This document shows, in pieces, positions 33,486-43,223 of a DNA stretch of 64,000 nt. The DNA lies in assembly GCF_000004075.3 (NCBI RefSeq), contig NC_026656.2:15438001-15502000 (forward strand), read 5' to 3'. The notes beneath the pieces were generated by a model that worked only from the letters and a program-made list of their open reading frames with translations, was not told the DNA's origin and searched no databases. The position numbers and the translations under genes were made by a program. Every line of letters starts with the position of its first letter. The first letter of the stretch is position 1. Source of the DNA: Cucumis sativus. Lineage: Eukaryota > Streptophyta > Magnoliopsida > Cucurbitales > Cucurbitaceae.

Positions 33486-36400
33486 ATGGAGCTTCAAGAT
33501 TTTGCGCCAATTTTTGGTAAACCCACCAGAGTGGAGTGGGTAAACAGGGGTTCACTTTCTTTGCTCCAATTTTTGTTCCATGTTTATTCTCCAAATCCTT
33601 CGCACCTCAGATTTCTTGTTACTGATTTTCATTCTAACACTTGGGAATCCACCAAATCAGCTTTCCAGCTTGAGGATATGGTGGGCATCTTTGATTTCTC
33701 CCTGTACGTCGTCTCTTTGTTGCATCCTTCTTCTTTGATTTCTATTAATATGTTGTTCTTGCTTCTTTTTTTCCTCTTAGCAAATGATGAAATGGGATTG
33801 TTTTTTAGAATTTGTTGGTGCGAAAAGCTCTACTATTTTATGTAATCTTTGATACAGAGAGATGACATTGGAATTGGAGGGGCTTTTTCAGAGTTTGTTG
33901 ATTATATTGTTGCATCTATGAAATTTGGAGATGTAAGGCTTTGTATGGAAGGACAATCGGGGAAAGATGGTAATCTTCCTGATATGTAACTAATTCAAAT
34001 TCTCTTTCCCATTCAATATATTGTGAAACTCACTCCTTTTTTTATTATTCTACAGGTGCAGCATCTGTCAAACTAATTGCTCAGAAATCAAAGGGAATGC
34101 CTGTATTTTCCATTTCTCTCACAAAACTTGTTGACTCTGCTGCTGCTGAAGCTATGGCAACTATGTCCTTGGGGCTTTTTAACTCATTAAAAGAAAAGGA
34201 GTGTTCACTTATGAAAGGTTTTCATCGCTTATCTATAGACTGCCTATATTCTGTGCTATAGTCATCAAATATGTCGATATCGTTTGGTTAGAAAAAAAAA
34301 GAATACATTTTTATAGTGTTTGAACAGAAGGAAAGATGTTGGAGGTTCTTATGAAATATAGTGATCGGGTGGGCTCAGTGTGTGGATCATTCTAATTAGA
34401 TGGAAGGATAGGCATCTTTAGTTTCTTTTCCCTTTTTGTTCCATCTAGATTTTGGTATTTGGCTTTCATTTCTCTCAAATAACTTCTCACAGCATTCTAC
34501 AAAATTGTTTGGTATTTTGTTAAGGCCTTAGCCACAATTTTATTTATCAACTATGGGGAAGGATTTGAGAGTTCCCCAATCTCTCCACACTACTCTAATG
34601 AGAGTCTATACCAAAATCATTTAGCCAAAAAGATACCCACCCCCAACATTCACAATACCTAAATAGGCAAACTCTAAGAAAGCTAACAGAATACTTGGCC
34701 CCACTTTAACAGTCATACTCCTAAGGGCCCACCTTACGGGAAATTACTAACTAACTCTCAATCATTCTTTCTTCTTCCCACTTTTATTCCTATGTGAATA
34801 CACCTTTACTATGGGGGGTCTATCAAATTTGTATCTGAACATTGGCATGTTGCATTTTTTGTTATGAATTATGCATATACAAAATAATTGTCTTATATTC
34901 AAATGGATATATTAGAATGTGTCAACTCTCCGGTGTGTCTGTGAACTTTAAGAATACCTAATTTTGGTTCCATTCGTATGTGATGGGCCAATCCAGTCAA
35001 GCTGATTTGAAGTAGGGAAATAAACACAGTACTCTCAATCAAATCTGTCTTGGGAAGCTGTTTCTTTTTAGTCTCCCATTGGTGTGGTTTTGTAGGACTG
35101 ACTCAAATATCATGTGCGAACTGCTTGAAAATGTTTGTACTTGAAAATTACTTTGTTTAGACTTTAGGGTACCGTGTTTATTGAACAACAAACTACGTGA
35201 TGTACATGGTTTTAGTTTTTCTTTCTTTATTATTATTATTTTTTTTTGGTAACTGTGATAGCATAGTTTGATGTAATATTCATTTATAGGTTAAATTTAG
35301 AACAAGATTTTTCTCAGAAATGTTCAATTTTTTGCATGCTTGCATTGAAACTTAGCATCTGTAGCATTGACTTTTCTCCTATACTGTTCTTTCAGAACAA
35401 GAGCACTCCCTTCAGTTGACAACCATGATATCAACTGAAAAGGTATATCCATCTTCGTCTTGCACCACTGTAAATAAATATGATACATGGTGATGGGCAC
35501 TTTTAGTTTTATACTTATCGATAGACTTCATTAATAAATACATTTAATAATACACAATATAACGATAACAAGATTTCTTCTGATTTCTTCTCTTCCACAG
35601 CCTCTCTTATATATCAGAACTCAAACAGTTTACTCTAGTCAATACTGTTCCCTGTTATTAGTCTGCATATGTTTTGTTAATTTTTACTTCCTTTGAAACT
35701 TTATTTATTAAATGTTAATAAGAAAAAAGATTAAAAATTAAAAATGAAGAACACGGATGTTCTTTATGTCTCACTTATTCTTTCATTATATATGACCTCA
35801 TGTAACTTTGTTAGCCATTTCTTGGTTGAAAAACATTTTCCATTACAATACCAATTGCTTCCTTATCCCCTATGGATTCAACTCATGGGTCTTTGAGTTT
35901 CTCTATTTTTGTATTAAACATTTCTTATTTGAGATTATACTTTTTGTTGATGTCAGGAAAAGAACGAAAATATCCAAACTCAGCTCGGGCAATATAGAAA
36001 GAAACAGAAGTTACAAAATATGAATGCCTCAAATTCTCCTGGTATGTTCCTATAATCAATCCATTTAAGGTATTATGAAATTATATGTTATGTACTAAAG
36101 GACTGATCGATTTTTTCCGTTCTTCACAGATAAATCTGGCGTACATAATATTGGCTTGACAAAAGCCACCAATCGTGTGGTGCCAGTACACCGGAGGTCG
36201 GTTTCTCAAAGTTACATTCATCACATAATTCAATTGATTTATTCCCAATACTAATAGATGTACTTAGCATTGTATTTGAACAGGGCGAAAGCTAGGGGTG
36301 CCCTTCTGCAAGACTCTGAAGATGACAATGGTAGGTAGAGAAGTTGAATGTCTTGTATCCAATCTAGTTTTGTACAGAATTTTGATTTCTGAAAAGCTGC

Positions 36401-39400
36401 TCTAGCCAATCACTCTCTTCCCTTTGAATGGAGAAAAAAAATCCCGTGGTATTGAGTTCCTCAATGGTTTGCTTAAAAAGGAACAGGAAATCCTTGTTTA
36501 GGGTCAAGAGGCTATCTCCCTGTCGTTATCCCAAAGCTTTAAAACTTTTGTTTCTTCCATGCAAGTTTTACTTTCTAGCACATCCACGTTAAATGATCTC
36601 ATTTTTTCATATATTTTCTTTTAATCTACACTAATAGAGATGTTCCTTCCATTTTTTTCCCATTTTTTCTTACAGAAAAAGAGCGCTCCCTTCAGTCGAC
36701 ATTCGAGGAAAAGGTATATTCAGTCTCCTGTCCCCTTTATGAATAAAGCACTTTGTCCTTTTATAGACGGGTTCTTATTGTCTTGAAATACCTCAAAATT
36801 AGTACAAGTATGACCATAGTCGTGGTGTATTTTTGGTGCCTTCGGAGCGTATTTTCATCTTGCTCATTAATTGTTTGTAAATTTTTTAATCTACTTTTGA
36901 ATATGTCAGGAAAAGAAAGAGGGGTTGCTAAATACAGATACCTTGGCCATTGTAGACAATCTTCATAAGCCTCCTAGTATGTTTTTTATGGTTCCCTCTA
37001 AAATTTAAGCTTATTTGTTTTTATTGAAAAGAGAGACAACGAGTTCACACCAATTTACGTGGAAACTCGAGTACCGGGAGAAAAACCACGATTGTTTGTT
37101 GTTATTATTTTCTAATGAATAAAACAATAGGTACAGGGAGAATAAATAGAGTACACAATGGAATAAAAAAGGAAAAGATTTAGGAAAATAAGGAATACAT
37201 TCCCATAATCTTTCCATAATTATTCTAGGATTCTAACAAGGAAAAAGCCTAGAAAAAAAGGAAAGAATTCCAACACTCCCCCTCAAGTTGGGACGTAAAT
37301 ATCAATGAGGCCCAACTTGCTAACGCAAAGTCGAAGTTTGGTCTGAGAAGCCCTTTGGTAAGAACATCAGCAACCTGTTGACTCGAAGGGATGTACGGAA
37401 TGCATATGCTCCCACTGTCAAGTTTTTCTTTGATAAAATGTCGATCAATCTCAACATGTTTAGTTCTATCATGTTGAACAGGGTTGTTAGCAATACTAAT
37501 AGCGGCTTTATTATCACAGAAAAGCTTCAATGGTGTCTCACATTCCTGATGAAGATCTGTCAAAACTTTCTGAAGCCAAATTTCCTCACATATTCCTAAA
37601 CTCATAGCTCTGTATTCAGCCTCAGCGCTGCTCCTGGCCACAACACTTTGCTTCTTACTCCTCCAAGTTACAAGATTGCCCCAAACAAAGGTACAATAAC
37701 CAGAGGTAGATTTTCTGTCAACAACAGATCCTGCCCAATCCGAGTCAGTGTATGCCTCAATGGTCTTTCTGTCTGTTTTTCTAAACATCAGCCCTTTACC
37801 AGGTGTTGATTTTAAGTATCTCAAGATTCTGTTGACAGCTTTCATGTGTTCCTCATTAGGGGTCTGCATAAACTGGCTGACAACACTCACAGCAAAGGAA
37901 ATATCAGGACGAGTATGAGATAAGTAAATTAATTTACCCACGAGGCGTTGATACTGTTCTTTATCAACTGGAACTTGATCATCAGAGTTTCCTAGTTTGC
38001 AGTTGAATTCAATAGGAGTGTCAGTGGGACGACATCCTAACATACCTGTCTCGGTTAACAAATCAAGGATGTATTTTCTTTGAGATACGGAGATACCTTC
38101 TTTAGATCTGGCCACCTCCATTCCAAGGAAATATTTCAAATTTCCCAAATCCTTGATTTCAAACTCATCGCCCATTCTCTGCTTTAGTTGACTGATTTCT
38201 GCCTGATCATCTCCAGTCAAAACAATGTCATCCACATAAACTATTAGAACAGCAATCTTTCCTGTTTTGGAAACCTTTGTAAATAAAGTATGATCAGAGT
38301 GTCCCTGCCTGTACCCTTGGGACTTGACAAAGGTAGTGAATCTGTCAAACCATGCTCTGGGAGACTGTTTCAGACCATATATAGATTTCTGGAGTTTACA
38401 CACATGCTGACCAAACTGGGCTTCAAATCCAGGCGGAGGGCTCATGTAGACTTCCTCTACGAGGTCTCCATTCAAAAAGGCATTCTTAACATCCAGCTGA
38501 TATAAAGGCCAATCTTTGTTCACAGCAACAGATAACAGAACTCTAATAGTATTCAACTTAGCAACTGGAGAAAAAGTTTCTGAATAGTCAATACCATAGG
38601 TTTGAGTAAATCCCTTCGCAACTAACCTTGCCTTGTGTCTGTCAAGAGTACCATCAGCTTTGTATTTGAGAGAGAACACCCATTTGCATCCCACAGTTTT
38701 GTGTCCCTTAGGTAGAGTACAAATGTCCCAAGTACTATTCTTTTCAAGAGCTTTCATCTCTTCCATGACAGCATTCTTCCATTCAGGATACTTTAAAGCA
38801 GTGTAGATATCTTTTGGTATTATGGTAGAGTCAAGGCTTGCTGTAAAAGCTCTGAACTGAGGAGAGAGACTATCGTAGGAAACATAATTGCAAATGGGGT
38901 GTTTAGTACAAGACCTGGTGCCTTTTCTCAGAGCAATGGGAATGTCAAGAGAGGAATCATACTCATCTGATTTTCCTGTATGACCCTGTTCCGCTTCATT
39001 ATTACGGGTTTCTATTCTGACCTCAATCTCATCACCACTGTCCTTTTCTTCCACGTTTTCAAGAACAGCAACATTAGACCTGTCATTCTCACTTATCATA
39101 TTCTTAGTACAGGGTTCAGTAGGGTTTTCCATACCTTGATCTCGAGGAGGTTCAGAGTCTTGGACTGGAGCCGGCGGCTGACTAGTAGGGGAACCGACTT
39201 CCTTTTTGTGATTCCTCCTGTAGTACGTTTTCCAGGGGACTTGGTTTGTGGGTAGGACTATGGAATGAGGAATGATGTTAGACACGACACTAGGAGTGGG
39301 TTCGATGAATTCAAAGGTGTTGTTAGACTCTTCACTCACACTCTCCCCCTGAAGATGGCTAACGGGAAAGTAGGGTCGATCCTCACAGAAAGTAACATCC

Positions 39401-42400
39401 ATAGTGACAAAGTATTTTCTGGATGGTGGGTGAAAACATTTATAACCACGCTGGTGAGGGGGATACCCAACAAACACACATGCCTGAGCCCGAGGGGTAA
39501 ATTTGGTTTGATTAGGGCCAAAATTATGGACATAAGCGGTACACCCAAACACACGAAGAGGAACCTCAGAAACATGACGAGTCGATGGGTAGGACTCCTT
39601 AAGACAATCTAAGGGAGTTTGAAGATGAAGAATACGAGAAGGCATTCTATTGATTAAATGAGCTGCTGTAAGAATAGCATCTCCCCACAAGTATGAAGGA
39701 AGGGAAGTAGAAAGCATAAGGGAACGGGCTACTTCCAGAAGGTGACGGTTTTTTCGCTCGGCCACTCCATTTTGTTGAGGAGTGTAGGCGCACGAGTTTT
39801 GATGAACAATCCCCTTGGAAGCAAGAAATTCACTAAGGTTATGGTTTTGGAATTCCCGACCATTATCACTCCGAAGAATAGCAATTTTTTGATGGAATTG
39901 TGTTTCAATGGTGTGATAGAAATTTTGAAACATAGAGGAAACCTCAGATTTATCAGTGATAAGGTAGACCCAGGTAAGACGGGTATGATCATCAATGAAG
40001 GTTACGAACCACCGTTTTCCAGATGAGGTTGTTATCTTGGATGGTCCCCAGACATCACTATGAACAAGAGTGAAGGGTTGGGTTGGTTTGTATGGTTGTG
40101 AGGGAAAAGAGACTCGATGTTGTTTGGCCTGAATACACACATCACAAGATAAGGTAGTCATCTCAACTTTAGAGAAGAGATGTGGAAATAAATGTTTCAT
40201 ATATTGAAAATTAGGGTGGCCTAAACGAAAATGCCACAACATACAATCTTGTTCAGAAGTAGTGAAATAGGAAGATAAGAGACTAGTCCTAGGAATGCTA
40301 CTAGAAGAGGTATCGTCATCAAGGAGGTAGAGTCCCCTACTATGCCGGGCAGTGCCAATCATCCTCCCCGAGCTCAAGTCCTGAAAAGAGACAGAATCAG
40401 GTAAGAATATTGCTTTGCAGTTTAACTCATGAGTGATCTTGCTTATCGAAAGCAAATTATAAGATAGTTTGGGCACATGCAAAACATTATGTAAGGAGAG
40501 CCCTGCACAAGGAGAAATCTTCCCCTTTCCAGCAATGGGGGCCAAGGAGCCATCTGCAATTCTAATTGTCTCGTTCCCAGCACAAGGAATGTAAGATACA
40601 AAATGTTCAGAGGACCCAGTCAAATGATCTGTGGCACCAGAATCCAGAATCCAGGGGTTCTTCCCATCAATACTAACAAGACCGAAGGAATGAGGTATAC
40701 CTGATTGGACAATGGCACCTAAAGTGGCAAGACTGAGATCAGTTTGGTTTTTGTGTGGATCGGATTGTTGAGGAGGTTCAGCAGACTCACTCACATACGC
40801 CCGCCCTGTGTTCTGTTTGTCGTTGGAAGGGCGTTTCTTACTTCCTGGGGGACGACCATGTAACTTCCAACATTGTTCTTTGGTATGCCATTGTTTTTTG
40901 CAATGCTCGCAGACAGGAATTGGTTTTCCATTATGCTTGTCACTGCTACTGTTAGAAGATCTTGCACTAAAAGCAGCAGAGTCAATAGTAGGGGTTGCGG
41001 AAATATTCATAGCACTTGTGCGATCTTCCTCGAGGCGGATTTCAGAGCAAACTTCCATCAGGGAGGGAATCGGTCTTTGACCTAGTATACGCCCTCGAAC
41101 TACATCAAACTTAGGATTAAGACCAGCAAGAAAGTCATAAATCCTGTCATTCTCTTCAATTCTCGAGTACTGTACACCATCAGTGGGATCACGCCAGACT
41201 AGTTCTCTGCATAGGTCCATTTCTTGCCATATAAGAGAAAGCTTATTGAAAAAGGATGTGACATCCATGGTTCCTTGCTTGCATTCATGAACTTGCTTTC
41301 TCAGCGTGTATAGACGAGAGGCATTCTGACGTTTTGAGTAAAGTGTCTGGGCTGTGTCCCAAATATCCTTGGCTGTTGCAGCAAACAATAACGGCTTGCC
41401 AATTTGAGGTTCCATACTATTGATCAATATGGATCGAAGAATAGAGTCTTCTGCCTTCCAATATCGTTCATGTGGGTCGCCCGGTAGGGGGCGAGGTATT
41501 TCCCTGTCAGAAAGCTAAATTTTTGTCGTCCTTCGAGGACCATCTTTACTGACTGAGACCATGAGAAATAGTTGTTGCCATTCAACTTTTCTCCTGAAAG
41601 ATGATACATGGAAGACTGAGCCACCGTATTAGTCACATAAGGAGAGGATACATTAGGGAACGAGTTTACCGGATTCTCAGAATACATCGGTAGAGTGGAT
41701 GTCGTCCCTAAGGTAGCCTCAAGTGCTGCTATCTGTTGTCGAAGCCCTTCCAATTGTTGATGAACTATTCCCGAGGAAGCTTGCACGTTACGGTTGGAAT
41801 ATGCCGAAGATTCACCAACCTCAAATGTTGAGTGAATTTGAGAGTTTTTAACATCGGGATGGTAGCTAGGATCATTGGGTGGCTGGCCATACAGATTTGA
41901 CGAGCAGAAGCGGTGGTAGCCGATTGGAATTAGATGGCAGAACATAAATCGGGGCGTGGGGAGCAATATAGGCCGCGGACGAAGAAAAGGGTTGGACAGA
42001 TGGGATGGTCGGCGCCGTCTGAGGAAGAAAACCAGGCGCGTGGTGGTCCGGTGACGGCGCGGACGACTGCGGTAATGACGAAAAATTATTTTCGGACGTT
42101 TTCTGTAGCCGGCTTAATAATTCGTCCATGGCAGCACTCATCCGAGCATCGGTGGCAGCAGCTACGGCAGCACTAAAATTGATGGTTGTCCCTTCTGTTT
42201 GATTTTAATCAGTGGTTTGGTTTTTTTGGGTTTCTAGGGTGTTTTCATTGTCCCGCTCTGATACCATATTGAAAAGAGAGACAACGAGTTCACACCAATT
42301 TACGTGGAAACCCGAATACCGGGAGAAAAACCACGGTTGTTTGTTGTTATTATTTTCTAATGAATAAAACAATAGGTACAGGGGAGAATAAATAGAGTAC

Positions 42401-43223
42401 ACAATGGAATAAAAAAGGAAAAGATTTAGGAAAATAAGGAATACATTCCCATAATCTTTCCATAATTGTTCTAGGATTCTAACAAGGAAAAAGCCTAGAA
42501 AAAAAGGAAAGAATTCCAACAGTTTTCAAGGTTTAAGAACACTTTTGGTCCCTGAGCTTTCACGAAAGTAATAATGTATTTCCTAAACTTTAAAATGCAA
42601 AAATTTTGTCTATTTACTTTCAACTTTGTATGGACTTTAGTCTCTATGATGAAAGTGTTCATTCAAATTAAGTGTTAATTTATATTACATAATGGCTTAG
42701 TCTTCATAGTTTATATGTGAATTTGATCATCAATGAGTTATAAACCTACCCGGGTAAGAAACTTAACTCAATCACAATAATAATTTCCACCATAGAGATT
42801 TGGTTCTTACTAATTGTAAATTACAAGAACTAAATTGTTACATTTTAAAGTTAAGGAACTAAATTGTTAATACATTTGCAAGAATGAGGACTATCTTTTT
42901 GTTACCAACTAAAGTTGAGGGTCAAAATCGTTAGTTTTATGCTAGTTTAGGGACGAAAAGTGTTTTTTAATTATTCGCTACACAGAACTCATTATTGAAT
43001 TATCTTATTCTTAACAGACAAATCTGTTCATGATATCGGCTCGACAAAAATCACCAAGCATGTCGTGCCAACACATCACAGGTTGGTTTCTTGACTAAAT
43101 GAACCTAATTTTGTTTGTTATTTCCCCACGAACGATGGTAAACATACTGTAGCATTGTACTTGAGCAGGGCAAGAACACGAGGTGCCCTTCTGCAAGATA
43201 ACGAAGATGACGATGGAAGGTAA
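33486..43223 (+). CDS. Possible PAXX/XRCC4-superfamily protein, duplicated 3' exons
   Basis: Exons: 33486-33680, 33858-33969, 34056-34217, 35396-35442, 35957-36041, 36130-36196, 36284-36338 (stop TAG), giving 240 residues. The first three exons encode a compact domain (HLRFLVTDFHSNTWES, GAFSEFVDYIVASMKF, VKLIAQKSKGMPVFSISL, AMATMSLGLFNSLKEKE). Its pattern resembles the XRCC4/XLF/PAXX head plus the start of a coiled coil; PAXX acts in non-homologous end joining. That assignment is from remembered patterns and is tentative. The tail is basic and ends GALLQDSEDDNGR*. Exons 4-7 are repeated as 36676-36713, 36910-36976, 43018-43081, 43169-43223, ending GALLQDNEDDDGR*. A donor inside exon 7 (after 36330, GTAGGT) joins in phase to 36676, so a second product of 312 residues is predicted. 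A Copia element lies in the intron before 43018. Confidence 0.7.
37022..37275 (-). repeat. Copia 3' LTR
   Basis: 254 bp. On the minus strand it begins TGTTGGAATTC and ends CTCTTTTCAATA. It differs from the 5' LTR at four substitutions (for example CTCGAGTACC against CCCGAATACC on the plus strand) and one single-G length change. Confidence 0.96.
37249..41427 (-). CDS. Copia polyprotein (gag C-part to RNase H)
   Basis: Open frame of 1392 codons from the ATG at 41427; its last codons run into the 3' LTR. In order: gag C-terminal (UBN2-type) region; zinc knuckle CEHCKKQWHTKEQC (173-186); aspartic protease DSGAT (262-266); pre-integrase H-H-C-C region (about 399-431); integrase with D458, D521 and E557 (35 residues between the last two, the D,D-35-E pattern); reverse transcriptase with YVDD (1064-1067); RNase H with TDSDWAGS and SSAEAEYRAM, ending near DVLTKGL. 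Every catalytic residue I can check is present and there is no internal stop. The gag start is in other frames upstream, so the ATG at 41427 is not the natural polyprotein start. Confidence 0.95.
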   Translation of the reverse strand: MINSMEPQIGKPLLFAATAKDIWDTAQTLYSKRQNASRLYTLRKQVHECKQGTMDVTSFFNKLSLIWQEMDLCRELVWRDPTDGVQYSRIEENDRIYDFLAGLNPKFDVVRGRILGQRPIPSLMEVCSEIRLEEDRTSAMNISATPTIDSAAFSARSSNSSSDKHNGKPIPVCEHCKKQWHTKEQCWKLHGRPPGSKKRPSNDKQNTGRAYVSESAEPPQQSDPHKNQTDLSLATLGAIVQSGIPHSFGLVSIDGKNPWILDSGATDHLTGSSEHFVSYIPCAGNETIRIADGSLAPIAGKGKISPCAGLSLHNVLHVPKLSYNLLSISKITHELNCKAIFLPDSVSFQDLSSGRMIGTARHSRGLYLLDDDTSSSSIPRTSLLSSYFTTSEQDCMLWHFRLGHPNFQYMKHLFPHLFSKVEMTTLSCDVCIQAKQHRVSFPSQPYKPTQPFTLVHSDVWGPSKITTSSGKRWFVTFIDDHTRLTWVYLITDKSEVSSMFQNFYHTIETQFHQKIAILRSDNGREFQNHNLSEFLASKGIVHQNSCAYTPQQNGVAERKNRHLLEVARSLMLSTSLPSYLWGDAILTAAHLINRMPSRILHLQTPLDCLKESYPSTRHVSEVPLRVFGCTAYVHNFGPNQTKFTPRAQACVFVGYPPHQRGYKCFHPPSRKYFVTMDVTFCEDRPYFPVSHLQGESVSEESNNTFEFIEPTPSVVSNIIPHSIVLPTNQVPWKTYYRRNHKKEVGSPTSQPPAPVQDSEPPRDQGMENPTEPCTKNMISENDRSNVAVLENVEEKDSGDEIEVRIETRNNEAEQGHTGKSDEYDSSLDIPIALRKGTRSCTKHPICNYVSYDSLSPQFRAFTASLDSTIIPKDIYTALKYPEWKNAVMEEMKALEKNSTWDICTLPKGHKTVGCKWVFSLKYKADGTLDRHKARLVAKGFTQTYGIDYSETFSPVAKLNTIRVLLSVAVNKDWPLYQLDVKNAFLNGDLVEEVYMSPPPGFEAQFGQHVCKLQKSIYGLKQSPRAWFDRFTTFVKSQGYRQGHSDHTLFTKVSKTGKIAVLIVYVDDIVLTGDDQAEISQLKQRMGDEFEIKDLGNLKYFLGMEVARSKEGISVSQRKYILDLLTETGMLGCRPTDTPIEFNCKLGNSDDQVPVDKEQYQRLVGKLIYLSHTRPDISFAVSVVSQFMQTPNEEHMKAVNRILRYLKSTPGKGLMFRKTDRKTIEAYTDSDWAGSVVDRKSTSGYCTFVWGNLVTWRSKKQSVVARSSAEAEYRAMSLGICEEIWLQKVLTDLHQECETPLKLFCDNKAAISIANNPVQHDRTKHVEIDRHFIKEKLDSGSICIPYIPSSQQVADVLTKGLLRPNFDFALASWASLIFTSQLEGECWNSFLFF
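37276..37285 (-). other. Copia polypurine tract
   Basis: TTGAGGGGGAG on the minus strand directly before the 3' LTR, the primer site for plus-strand DNA synthesis. Confidence 0.85.
41428..42141 (-). pseudogene. Copia gag N-terminal region, frameshifted
   Basis: The 5' part of gag starts at ATG 42141 (MSAAMDELLSRLQK). The frame changes once at about 41890-41940 and again at about 41470-41520, after the conserved LNGNNYFSWSQSVKMVLEG block and the segment that follows it. Two neighbouring frames together with the long polyprotein frame carry the whole gag. Copia families of this kind normally have one continuous gag-pol frame, so these are probably inactivating indels and not programmed shifts. 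Confidence 0.8.
42255..42266 (-). other. Copia primer-binding site
   Basis: TGGTATCAGAGC on the minus strand, directly after the 5' LTR. It is the classic initiator-methionine-tRNA primer site of plant Copia elements. Confidence 0.93.
42267..42521 (-). repeat. Copia 5' LTR
   Basis: 255 bp, next to the primer-binding site, and close to 98% identical to the 3' LTR by eye. Its outer end abuts the target duplication gtttt at 42522-42526. Confidence 0.96.
42533..42970. mobile_element. MITE-like element beside the Copia insertion
   Basis: About 438 bp with terminal inverted repeats. The left end TTAAGAACACTTTTGGTCCC and the right end read in reverse, TTAAAAAACACTTTTCGTCCC, match at most positions. 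The interior has the 'ccctaaactttaaaatgcaa' style of plant non-autonomous DNA elements and no ORF. Its left end lies 6 bp from the Copia target duplication. The superfamily is not decided; a TTAA at both ends could be target site or terminus. Confidence 0.65.

Follow-up and report, generated by a model that had tools for sequence, protein, structure and literature searches.

In a 64,000-nt window of the Cucumis sativus genome (contig NC_026656.2, positions 15,438,001 to 15,502,000; all coordinates below are positions in this window, counted from its first letter), we found a gene for the end-joining factor PAXX whose last four exons are present twice in tandem. This gene structure, the PAXX identity of the product, and the conservation in cucurbits of both encoded tails and of the junction between them were all found directly. 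Taken together, they argue for a cucurbit PAXX that is spliced to a two-tailed product, in which both terminal motifs probably serve to dock on Ku.

We rebuilt the gene exon by exon from the window sequence (Table 1); all introns have GT-AG borders. The rebuilt model confirmed the claim of an earlier, sequence-only reading of this DNA that the last four exons form a tandem, in-phase copy: seven exons ending at the stop codon at 36336-36338 encode 240 residues, and use of the internal donor ATG/GTAGGTAG at 36330 followed by four more exons yields 312 residues and a TAA stop. A third in-phase product of 230 residues, absent from that reading, exists on paper if copy 1 is skipped (exon 3 joined to 36676). 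Exons 4–7 up to the internal donor constitute an 82-codon module in phase 1 at both ends, so that its own copy can follow it in frame or the module can be skipped. The lengths of the two copies do differ by multiples of three, as had been stated (9, 18, 3 and 0 nt for the four exon pairs, the last counted to the stop). Copy 2 likewise has no premature stop, but the statement that it has none at all does not hold, as its terminal TAA lies at 43221-43223. The internal donor matches seven of nine consensus positions and equals the best donors of this gene; GT sites with a score of at least seven account for 4.4% of those in the window. The end of copy 1, AATGGTAGGTAG (36327-36338), contains the GT donor, and the end of copy 2, GATGGAAGGTAA (43212-43223), has none there; the fusing donor may have been gained by one base change. 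A composition profile of the sequence revealed nothing informative.

The suspected PAXX-like identity was borne out by sequence homology and by fold prediction for the orthologue from melon. The window's protein matched Arabidopsis PAXX over residues 4-237 (E = 2.3e-46; profile E = 6.2e-88), and the structure prediction proposed earlier, made for the melon orthologue, gave an XRCC4-type head and coiled-coil fold that agrees with PAXX. Pfam PF15384, a model presumably built from animal sequences, had no match at E 1 in the window's protein and matched one of 59 homologues (E 0.0014); further Pfam scans, which we set aside, produced a single weak unrelated match for the window's protein and scattered weak matches over the 59 homologues. 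Arabidopsis PAXX (P0113; PDB 8p26, a structure reportedly from Khan and Ochi, 2023) has a similar head and coiled-coil fold, with 43–47% identity over the resolved part, and the same terminal motif, RRTRKRGALLQDSEEEDG. It differs in its single tail, its single motif and its length of 238 residues, compared to 311–316 residues in the full-length two-tailed cucurbit proteins. Binding of Arabidopsis PAXX to KU70, KU80 and XRCC4 has been reported, as cited in PMC12707071 (here and below, citations refer to the portions of each article that were available).

We searched 5.8 billion proteins, clustered at 90% identity, for homologues and based our counts on the best 120 of 135. With a strict pattern, which overlooks variants and cut-off proteins, the terminal motif occurred twice in six, once in 100 and not at all in 14. 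The six two-motif clusters are melon, Benincasa (wax gourd), Cucurbita maxima, Momordica, P0003 and P0006, the last two of which group with cucurbits in the tail tree described below; none of the remaining 114 has both tails. When only the tail was used as query, the six two-tailed proteins scored 171–243 bits, and the next best of 28 scored 53 bits. A looser motif count over 133 proteins returned seven with at least two motifs, namely the six cucurbit proteins and P0117 (Zingiber), which was rejected as a doubled tail because its two matches lie just 11 residues apart. The gene model of P0069 (Rhododendron simsii) contains the coil-end stretch EKNETIQRQLDAGLYSNRQKSQKMNDKSNPGAMLATG in two exact copies and has one terminal motif; either the annotation is wrong or an exon was duplicated there recently and independently.

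In all seven aligned proteins (cucumber and the six homologues), the switch from copy 1 to copy 2 falls at the identical codon. The three junctions named in the sequence-only reading (36330/36676, 36713/36910 and 36976/43018) give a protein that aligns to the 312-residue melon P0001 without gaps and with 93% identity. The join is also encoded by P0003 (311 residues; three contigs, the longest of 1212 bases) and by P0006 (240 residues, lacking the N-terminal part; one contig of 1802 bases). These contigs are shorter than the coding region, which spans 9.7 kb in cucumber, or ~4.2 kb excluding a retrotransposon, and should therefore derive from spliced RNA. The sequence-only reading was open to challenge if no transcript crossed between the copies or if copy 2 decayed in relatives; so far, neither has been borne out, as contigs of transcript size run from copy 1 into copy 2 and all relatives found have an in-frame copy 2. 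The long two-tailed form is the protein in every cucurbit found. Both product lengths are thus as computed earlier, but the 240-residue end, and with it the idea of two possible ends, finds no support: all six cucurbit clusters are two-tailed, and no single-tailed cucurbit protein was among the homologues returned, although clustering at 90% identity could conceal one. Selection on the longer form, in turn, is supported by the conserved tails and junction across cucurbits.

Pairwise comparison of the copies, each against 500 shuffles, left exons 4, 6 and 7 with similarities to their counterparts that no shuffle equalled (0/500), and exon 5 surpassed 490 of 500. Introns 4 and 5 were no more similar to their counterparts than shuffled sequences; intron 6 was (0/500 as good), its matching part lying near the acceptor. 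The regions directly upstream of exons 4 and 4' showed no similarity above shuffles, and a remnant of the old 3' untranslated region, sought by comparing the sequences after the copy 1 and copy 2 stops, was not apparent (229/500 shuffles as good). Because exon similarity has been kept and intron similarity mostly lost, the duplication is judged to be old. Searches of the 226.6 Mb genome, with only the best candidates scored, found no second locus of this gene.

Comparison with relatives, suggested earlier as a means of dating, fits one duplication preceding the Momordica/Cucurbita/Cucumis split. In a tree of 14 cucurbit and 53 single tails (67 rows, 98 columns), the cucurbit tails formed one group (93/90), with tail 2 as a nested group (94/98) and tail 1 as a weaker one (87/48). 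The bootstrap had yet to converge, and no star marks any of these three group supports. The topology supports a single origin and suggests that one duplication occurred before Momordica, Cucurbita and Cucumis parted and that the copies have not homogenised afterwards. The Momordica split has been dated to 33.3–40.4, 39–96 and 115–120 million years (PMC9832870) and to 44–87 million years (PMC7704671); cucumber and melon separated 9.0–10.2 million years ago (PMC7704671).

The terminal motif of plant PAXX has the core R-x2-P-x2-RR-x3-RG-x2-L, each position of which is kept in 112 to 120 of the 120 single-tailed proteins with the motif; its Gly (120/120) and Leu (118/120) are as fixed as the core Arg. 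Two residues after the motif Gly, 108 of these 120 have L, I or V and four have F; the third residue is L in 118. Seven columns are invariant among 59 aligned homologues, of which three (R223, R227 and G228) fall in the motif. Copy 1 retains all seven core residues in 7/7 cucurbit proteins, and in copy 2, five proteins retain all seven, melon six and cucumber five. The copy 2 segment RTRGALLQD is nonetheless invariant in 7/7 aligned proteins, with the linker drifting around it. By eye, copy 1 retains the coil end and mostly lacks the linker of other plants, and copy 2 has shed coil residues and retains the linker. Beyond the coil, the tail measures 119–122 residues in the six doubles versus a median of 61 in 53 singles. 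In all seven proteins, LLQD of copy 1 is followed by Ser and then by Glu-Asp-Asp (six proteins) or Glu-Asp-Glu (one), forming a stretch (QDSED) that we take to be a CK2-like site; copy 2 has Asn (six) or Asp (one) in place of this Ser, so phosphorylation may tune just one of the two tails. Among single-tailed proteins, 93/121 have Ser or Thr at this position, 81 of them with an acidic residue three residues on.

We consider the following scheme the likely explanation of these observations. An ancestor shared by the gourd genera sampled would have acquired a tandem duplication of the four terminal exons, and a donor inside the old last exon, overlapping its Gly-Arg-stop end, would have made the first stop intronic and fused the copies in frame. 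The normal product would then be a PAXX in which the head and coiled coil are followed by ~120 disordered tail residues that carry the terminal motif twice. With each motif docking on Ku, a dimer would offer four docking points on longer tethers, which could raise the odds of holding Ku, ligase IV-XRCC4 and the DNA ends together. By analogy, and in line with the sequence-only reading, we regard the plant terminal motif with moderate confidence as a Ku-docking element. The XLF-like motif VKRKKPRGLFS shares with the plant RRAKTRGALLQ a basic patch followed by Arg-Gly and hydrophobic residues (PMC4831024, PMC10369993), and the acidic end of the plant motif is shared with the human PAXX element FKSKKPAGGVDFDET (PMC4831024, PMC10413649). 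We rejected as too thin the argument that this acidic end implies Ku70 binding as in human PAXX. WRN and MRI, like the proposed cucurbit PAXX, carry several Ku-docking elements per chain (PMC4831024). In the plant protein, however, the element belongs to a different sequence class, and its doubling came from copying the entire block of C-terminal exons inside one gene. A bolder version, to which we give somewhat less than even credence, is that cucurbits remade an end-joining factor, with two Ku-docking motifs (one bearing a CK2-like Ser, the other Asn/Asp), a four-motif dimer and longer tethers; the copies would split the work (copy 1 the coil end, copy 2 the linker, both the motif), and cucumber may be drifting back to one working tail.

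Several comparisons with known Ku-binding proteins weigh against docking through two motifs. The plant motif lacks the Phe or other aromatic residue of XLF-like motifs (PMC4831024), and it differs likewise from the human PAXX Ku-binding motif (P-KBM), which ends in GGVDFDET, includes an aromatic and binds Ku70 (PMC10413649, PMC4831024). The XLF-like motif lies at the extreme C-terminus, whereas plant copy 1 is internal and acidic residues come after copy 2. In XLF, a single Ku-binding motif suffices for each dimer and the tail must reach a minimum length; placed internally, that motif is impaired, probably for want of a needed C-terminal carboxylate (PMC7744095). If this need for a free end applied here, copy 1 would be weakened and valency would not be doubled; the plant motif should depend less on a free C-terminus, because acidic residues follow it even in single-tailed proteins.

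The doubled element could matter in another way, through its basic block (RRAKxRG) acting in nuclear localisation or in contact with DNA or ligase IV, or simply by lengthening the tether. The motif is indeed basic in its first half (net +5 over 12 residues), the XLF basic stretch binds DNA and, together with the Ku-binding motif, touches LIG4 BRCT1 (PMC10369993), XLF joining is limited by tail length and not by sequence (PMC7744095), and single-tailed relatives have about half as much tail past the coil. A role in length only, however, would not preserve the motif in both copies, with RTRGALLQD identical in all seven proteins while the linker drifts, and a plain localisation signal needs neither the Gly nor the Leu that are fixed in the core, making these roles somewhat unlikely in our view. 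Regulated choice of the end, in which the copy 1 donor is used or not to give single- and double-tailed PAXX, appears unlikely. Both ends are open in frame, and three records (Benincasa, Cucurbita and Momordica) carry the label isoform X2, implying that other isoforms are annotated; against this stand the two-tailed state of every cucurbit cluster returned, within the clustering limit given above, and a copy 1 donor as good as the gene's best. The interval from the copy 1 stop to exon 4' contains none of the seven poly(A)-like hexamers sought, but with 1.4 expected (P 0.24) this says little and does not separate the two ends. That gene models falsely join two adjacent pieces is barely credible: the named homologue records are mostly predicted proteins, but the join is encoded by the short contigs of P0003 and P0006, the identical junction recurs across genera with differing linker lengths, and the genome searches, as far as the best candidates were scored, found this locus only.

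The remaining evidence against a working second tail concerns copy 2 itself, which might be a relic, in frame by history, weakly constrained and failing in Cucumis. It scores below copy 1 on the plant motif profile in 7/7 proteins (44.5–57.2 versus 61.5–65.0 bits), conservation across the seven aligned proteins is lowest in tail 2 (mean identity 0.73), and two core Arg have become His in cucumber copy 2. Between the cucumber copies, over 72 codons whose alignment is uncertain, the nonsynonymous and synonymous rates were dN 0.43 and dS 0.61 (NG86) or, by maximum likelihood, dN 0.51 and dS 0.58, a ratio of 0.7–0.9 that is close to neutral; the 23 motif codons gave dN 0.21 and dS 0.82 (NG86). YN00 in Biopython returned dN 0.50 and dS 0.42 over the 72 codons, with warnings; for the motif codons neither YN00 nor maximum likelihood gave a usable value, the latter returning an impossible dS of 7. 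Cucumber also has 14 lineage-specific changes versus three in melon, with five unresolved (two-sided P 0.013), five versus none of them in tail 2, and a retrotransposon entered the copy 2 intron ~0.6–1.2 million years ago under the rates we assume. However, the cucumber excess is not special to copy 2, because the head shows seven changes versus one (tail 1, two versus two); constraint on the gene as a whole is possibly relaxed in cucumber, and in Cucumis the constraint on copy 2 may be easing. Copy 2 remains in frame to its end in 7/7 proteins with RTRGALLQD invariant, and the Momordica split, tens of millions of years old (PMC9832870, PMC7704671), would have left ample time to lose an unconstrained tail. 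We therefore consider a relic distinctly improbable and continue to favour the two-tailed, Ku-docking PAXX.

Crop genome editing relies on end joining, and cucurbit PAXX is a repair protein of crops. The doubled tail is a new form of this known protein: the papers listed on PAXX with plants, Arabidopsis, XLF, cucurbit or cucumber contained no report of it, and AT5G64010 was not mentioned in the literature searched, subscription papers being mostly outside coverage in both cases. The case shows a stop codon becoming intronic and a terminal domain becoming a repeat. Together with single-tailed relatives, the doubled tail in related plants offers a natural experiment on the number of Ku contacts and tether length, which have been studied with artificial XLF constructs (PMC7744095).

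Table 1 Exons of the cucumber PAXX gene and the retrotransposon in its copy 2 intron.
Feature	Position	Strand	Content and basis
Exon 1	33486..33680	+	Start codon, PAXX head domain; 91% identical to melon residues 1-66
Exon 2	33858..33969	+	Head domain; model rebuild and melon alignment
Exon 3	34056..34217	+	Head domain and coiled-coil start, ends in phase 1; model rebuild and melon alignment
Exon 4, copy 1	35396..35442	+	Coiled coil; resembles 36676-36713, 0/500 shuffles as good
Exon 5, copy 1	35957..36041	+	Coil end and linker; 10/500 shuffles as good
Exon 6, copy 1	36130..36196	+	Linker and terminal-motif start; 0/500 shuffles as good
Exon 7, copy 1	36284..36330	+	Motif remainder RAKARGALLQDSEDDN; up to internal donor ATG/GTAGGT
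Former copy 1 coding end GTAGGTAG with stop TAG 36336-36338	36331..36338	+	Intronic in the long form
Exon 4', copy 2	36676..36713	+	Model rebuild, shuffle comparison with exon 4
Exon 5', copy 2	36910..36976	+	Coil part shorter, linker retained
Exon 6', copy 2	43018..43081	+	Model rebuild, shuffle comparison with exon 6
Exon 7', copy 2	43169..43223	+	Second motif remainder RARTRGALLQDNEDDDGR and stop TAA 43221-43223
Long terminal repeat (LTR) retrotransposon	37022..42521	-	Intron between exons 5' and 6'
LTRs of the retrotransposon	37022-37275 and 42267-42521	-	Pairwise comparison
Flanking GTTTT, 5 bp	37017-37021 and 42522-42526		Both sides of the retrotransposon

The retrotransposon is a young element 5.5 kb long and contains two long minus-strand open reading frames (1392 and 180 aa by coordinates). 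We presume it to be of the copia type, given its 5-bp flanks and a primer site resembling initiator tRNA-Met. Its LTRs differ by four transitions in 254 positions, which places the insertion dated above after the cucumber-melon split. LTR matches in the genome are 97–100% identical (best 40 of 720 candidates), and the family looks young and abundant.
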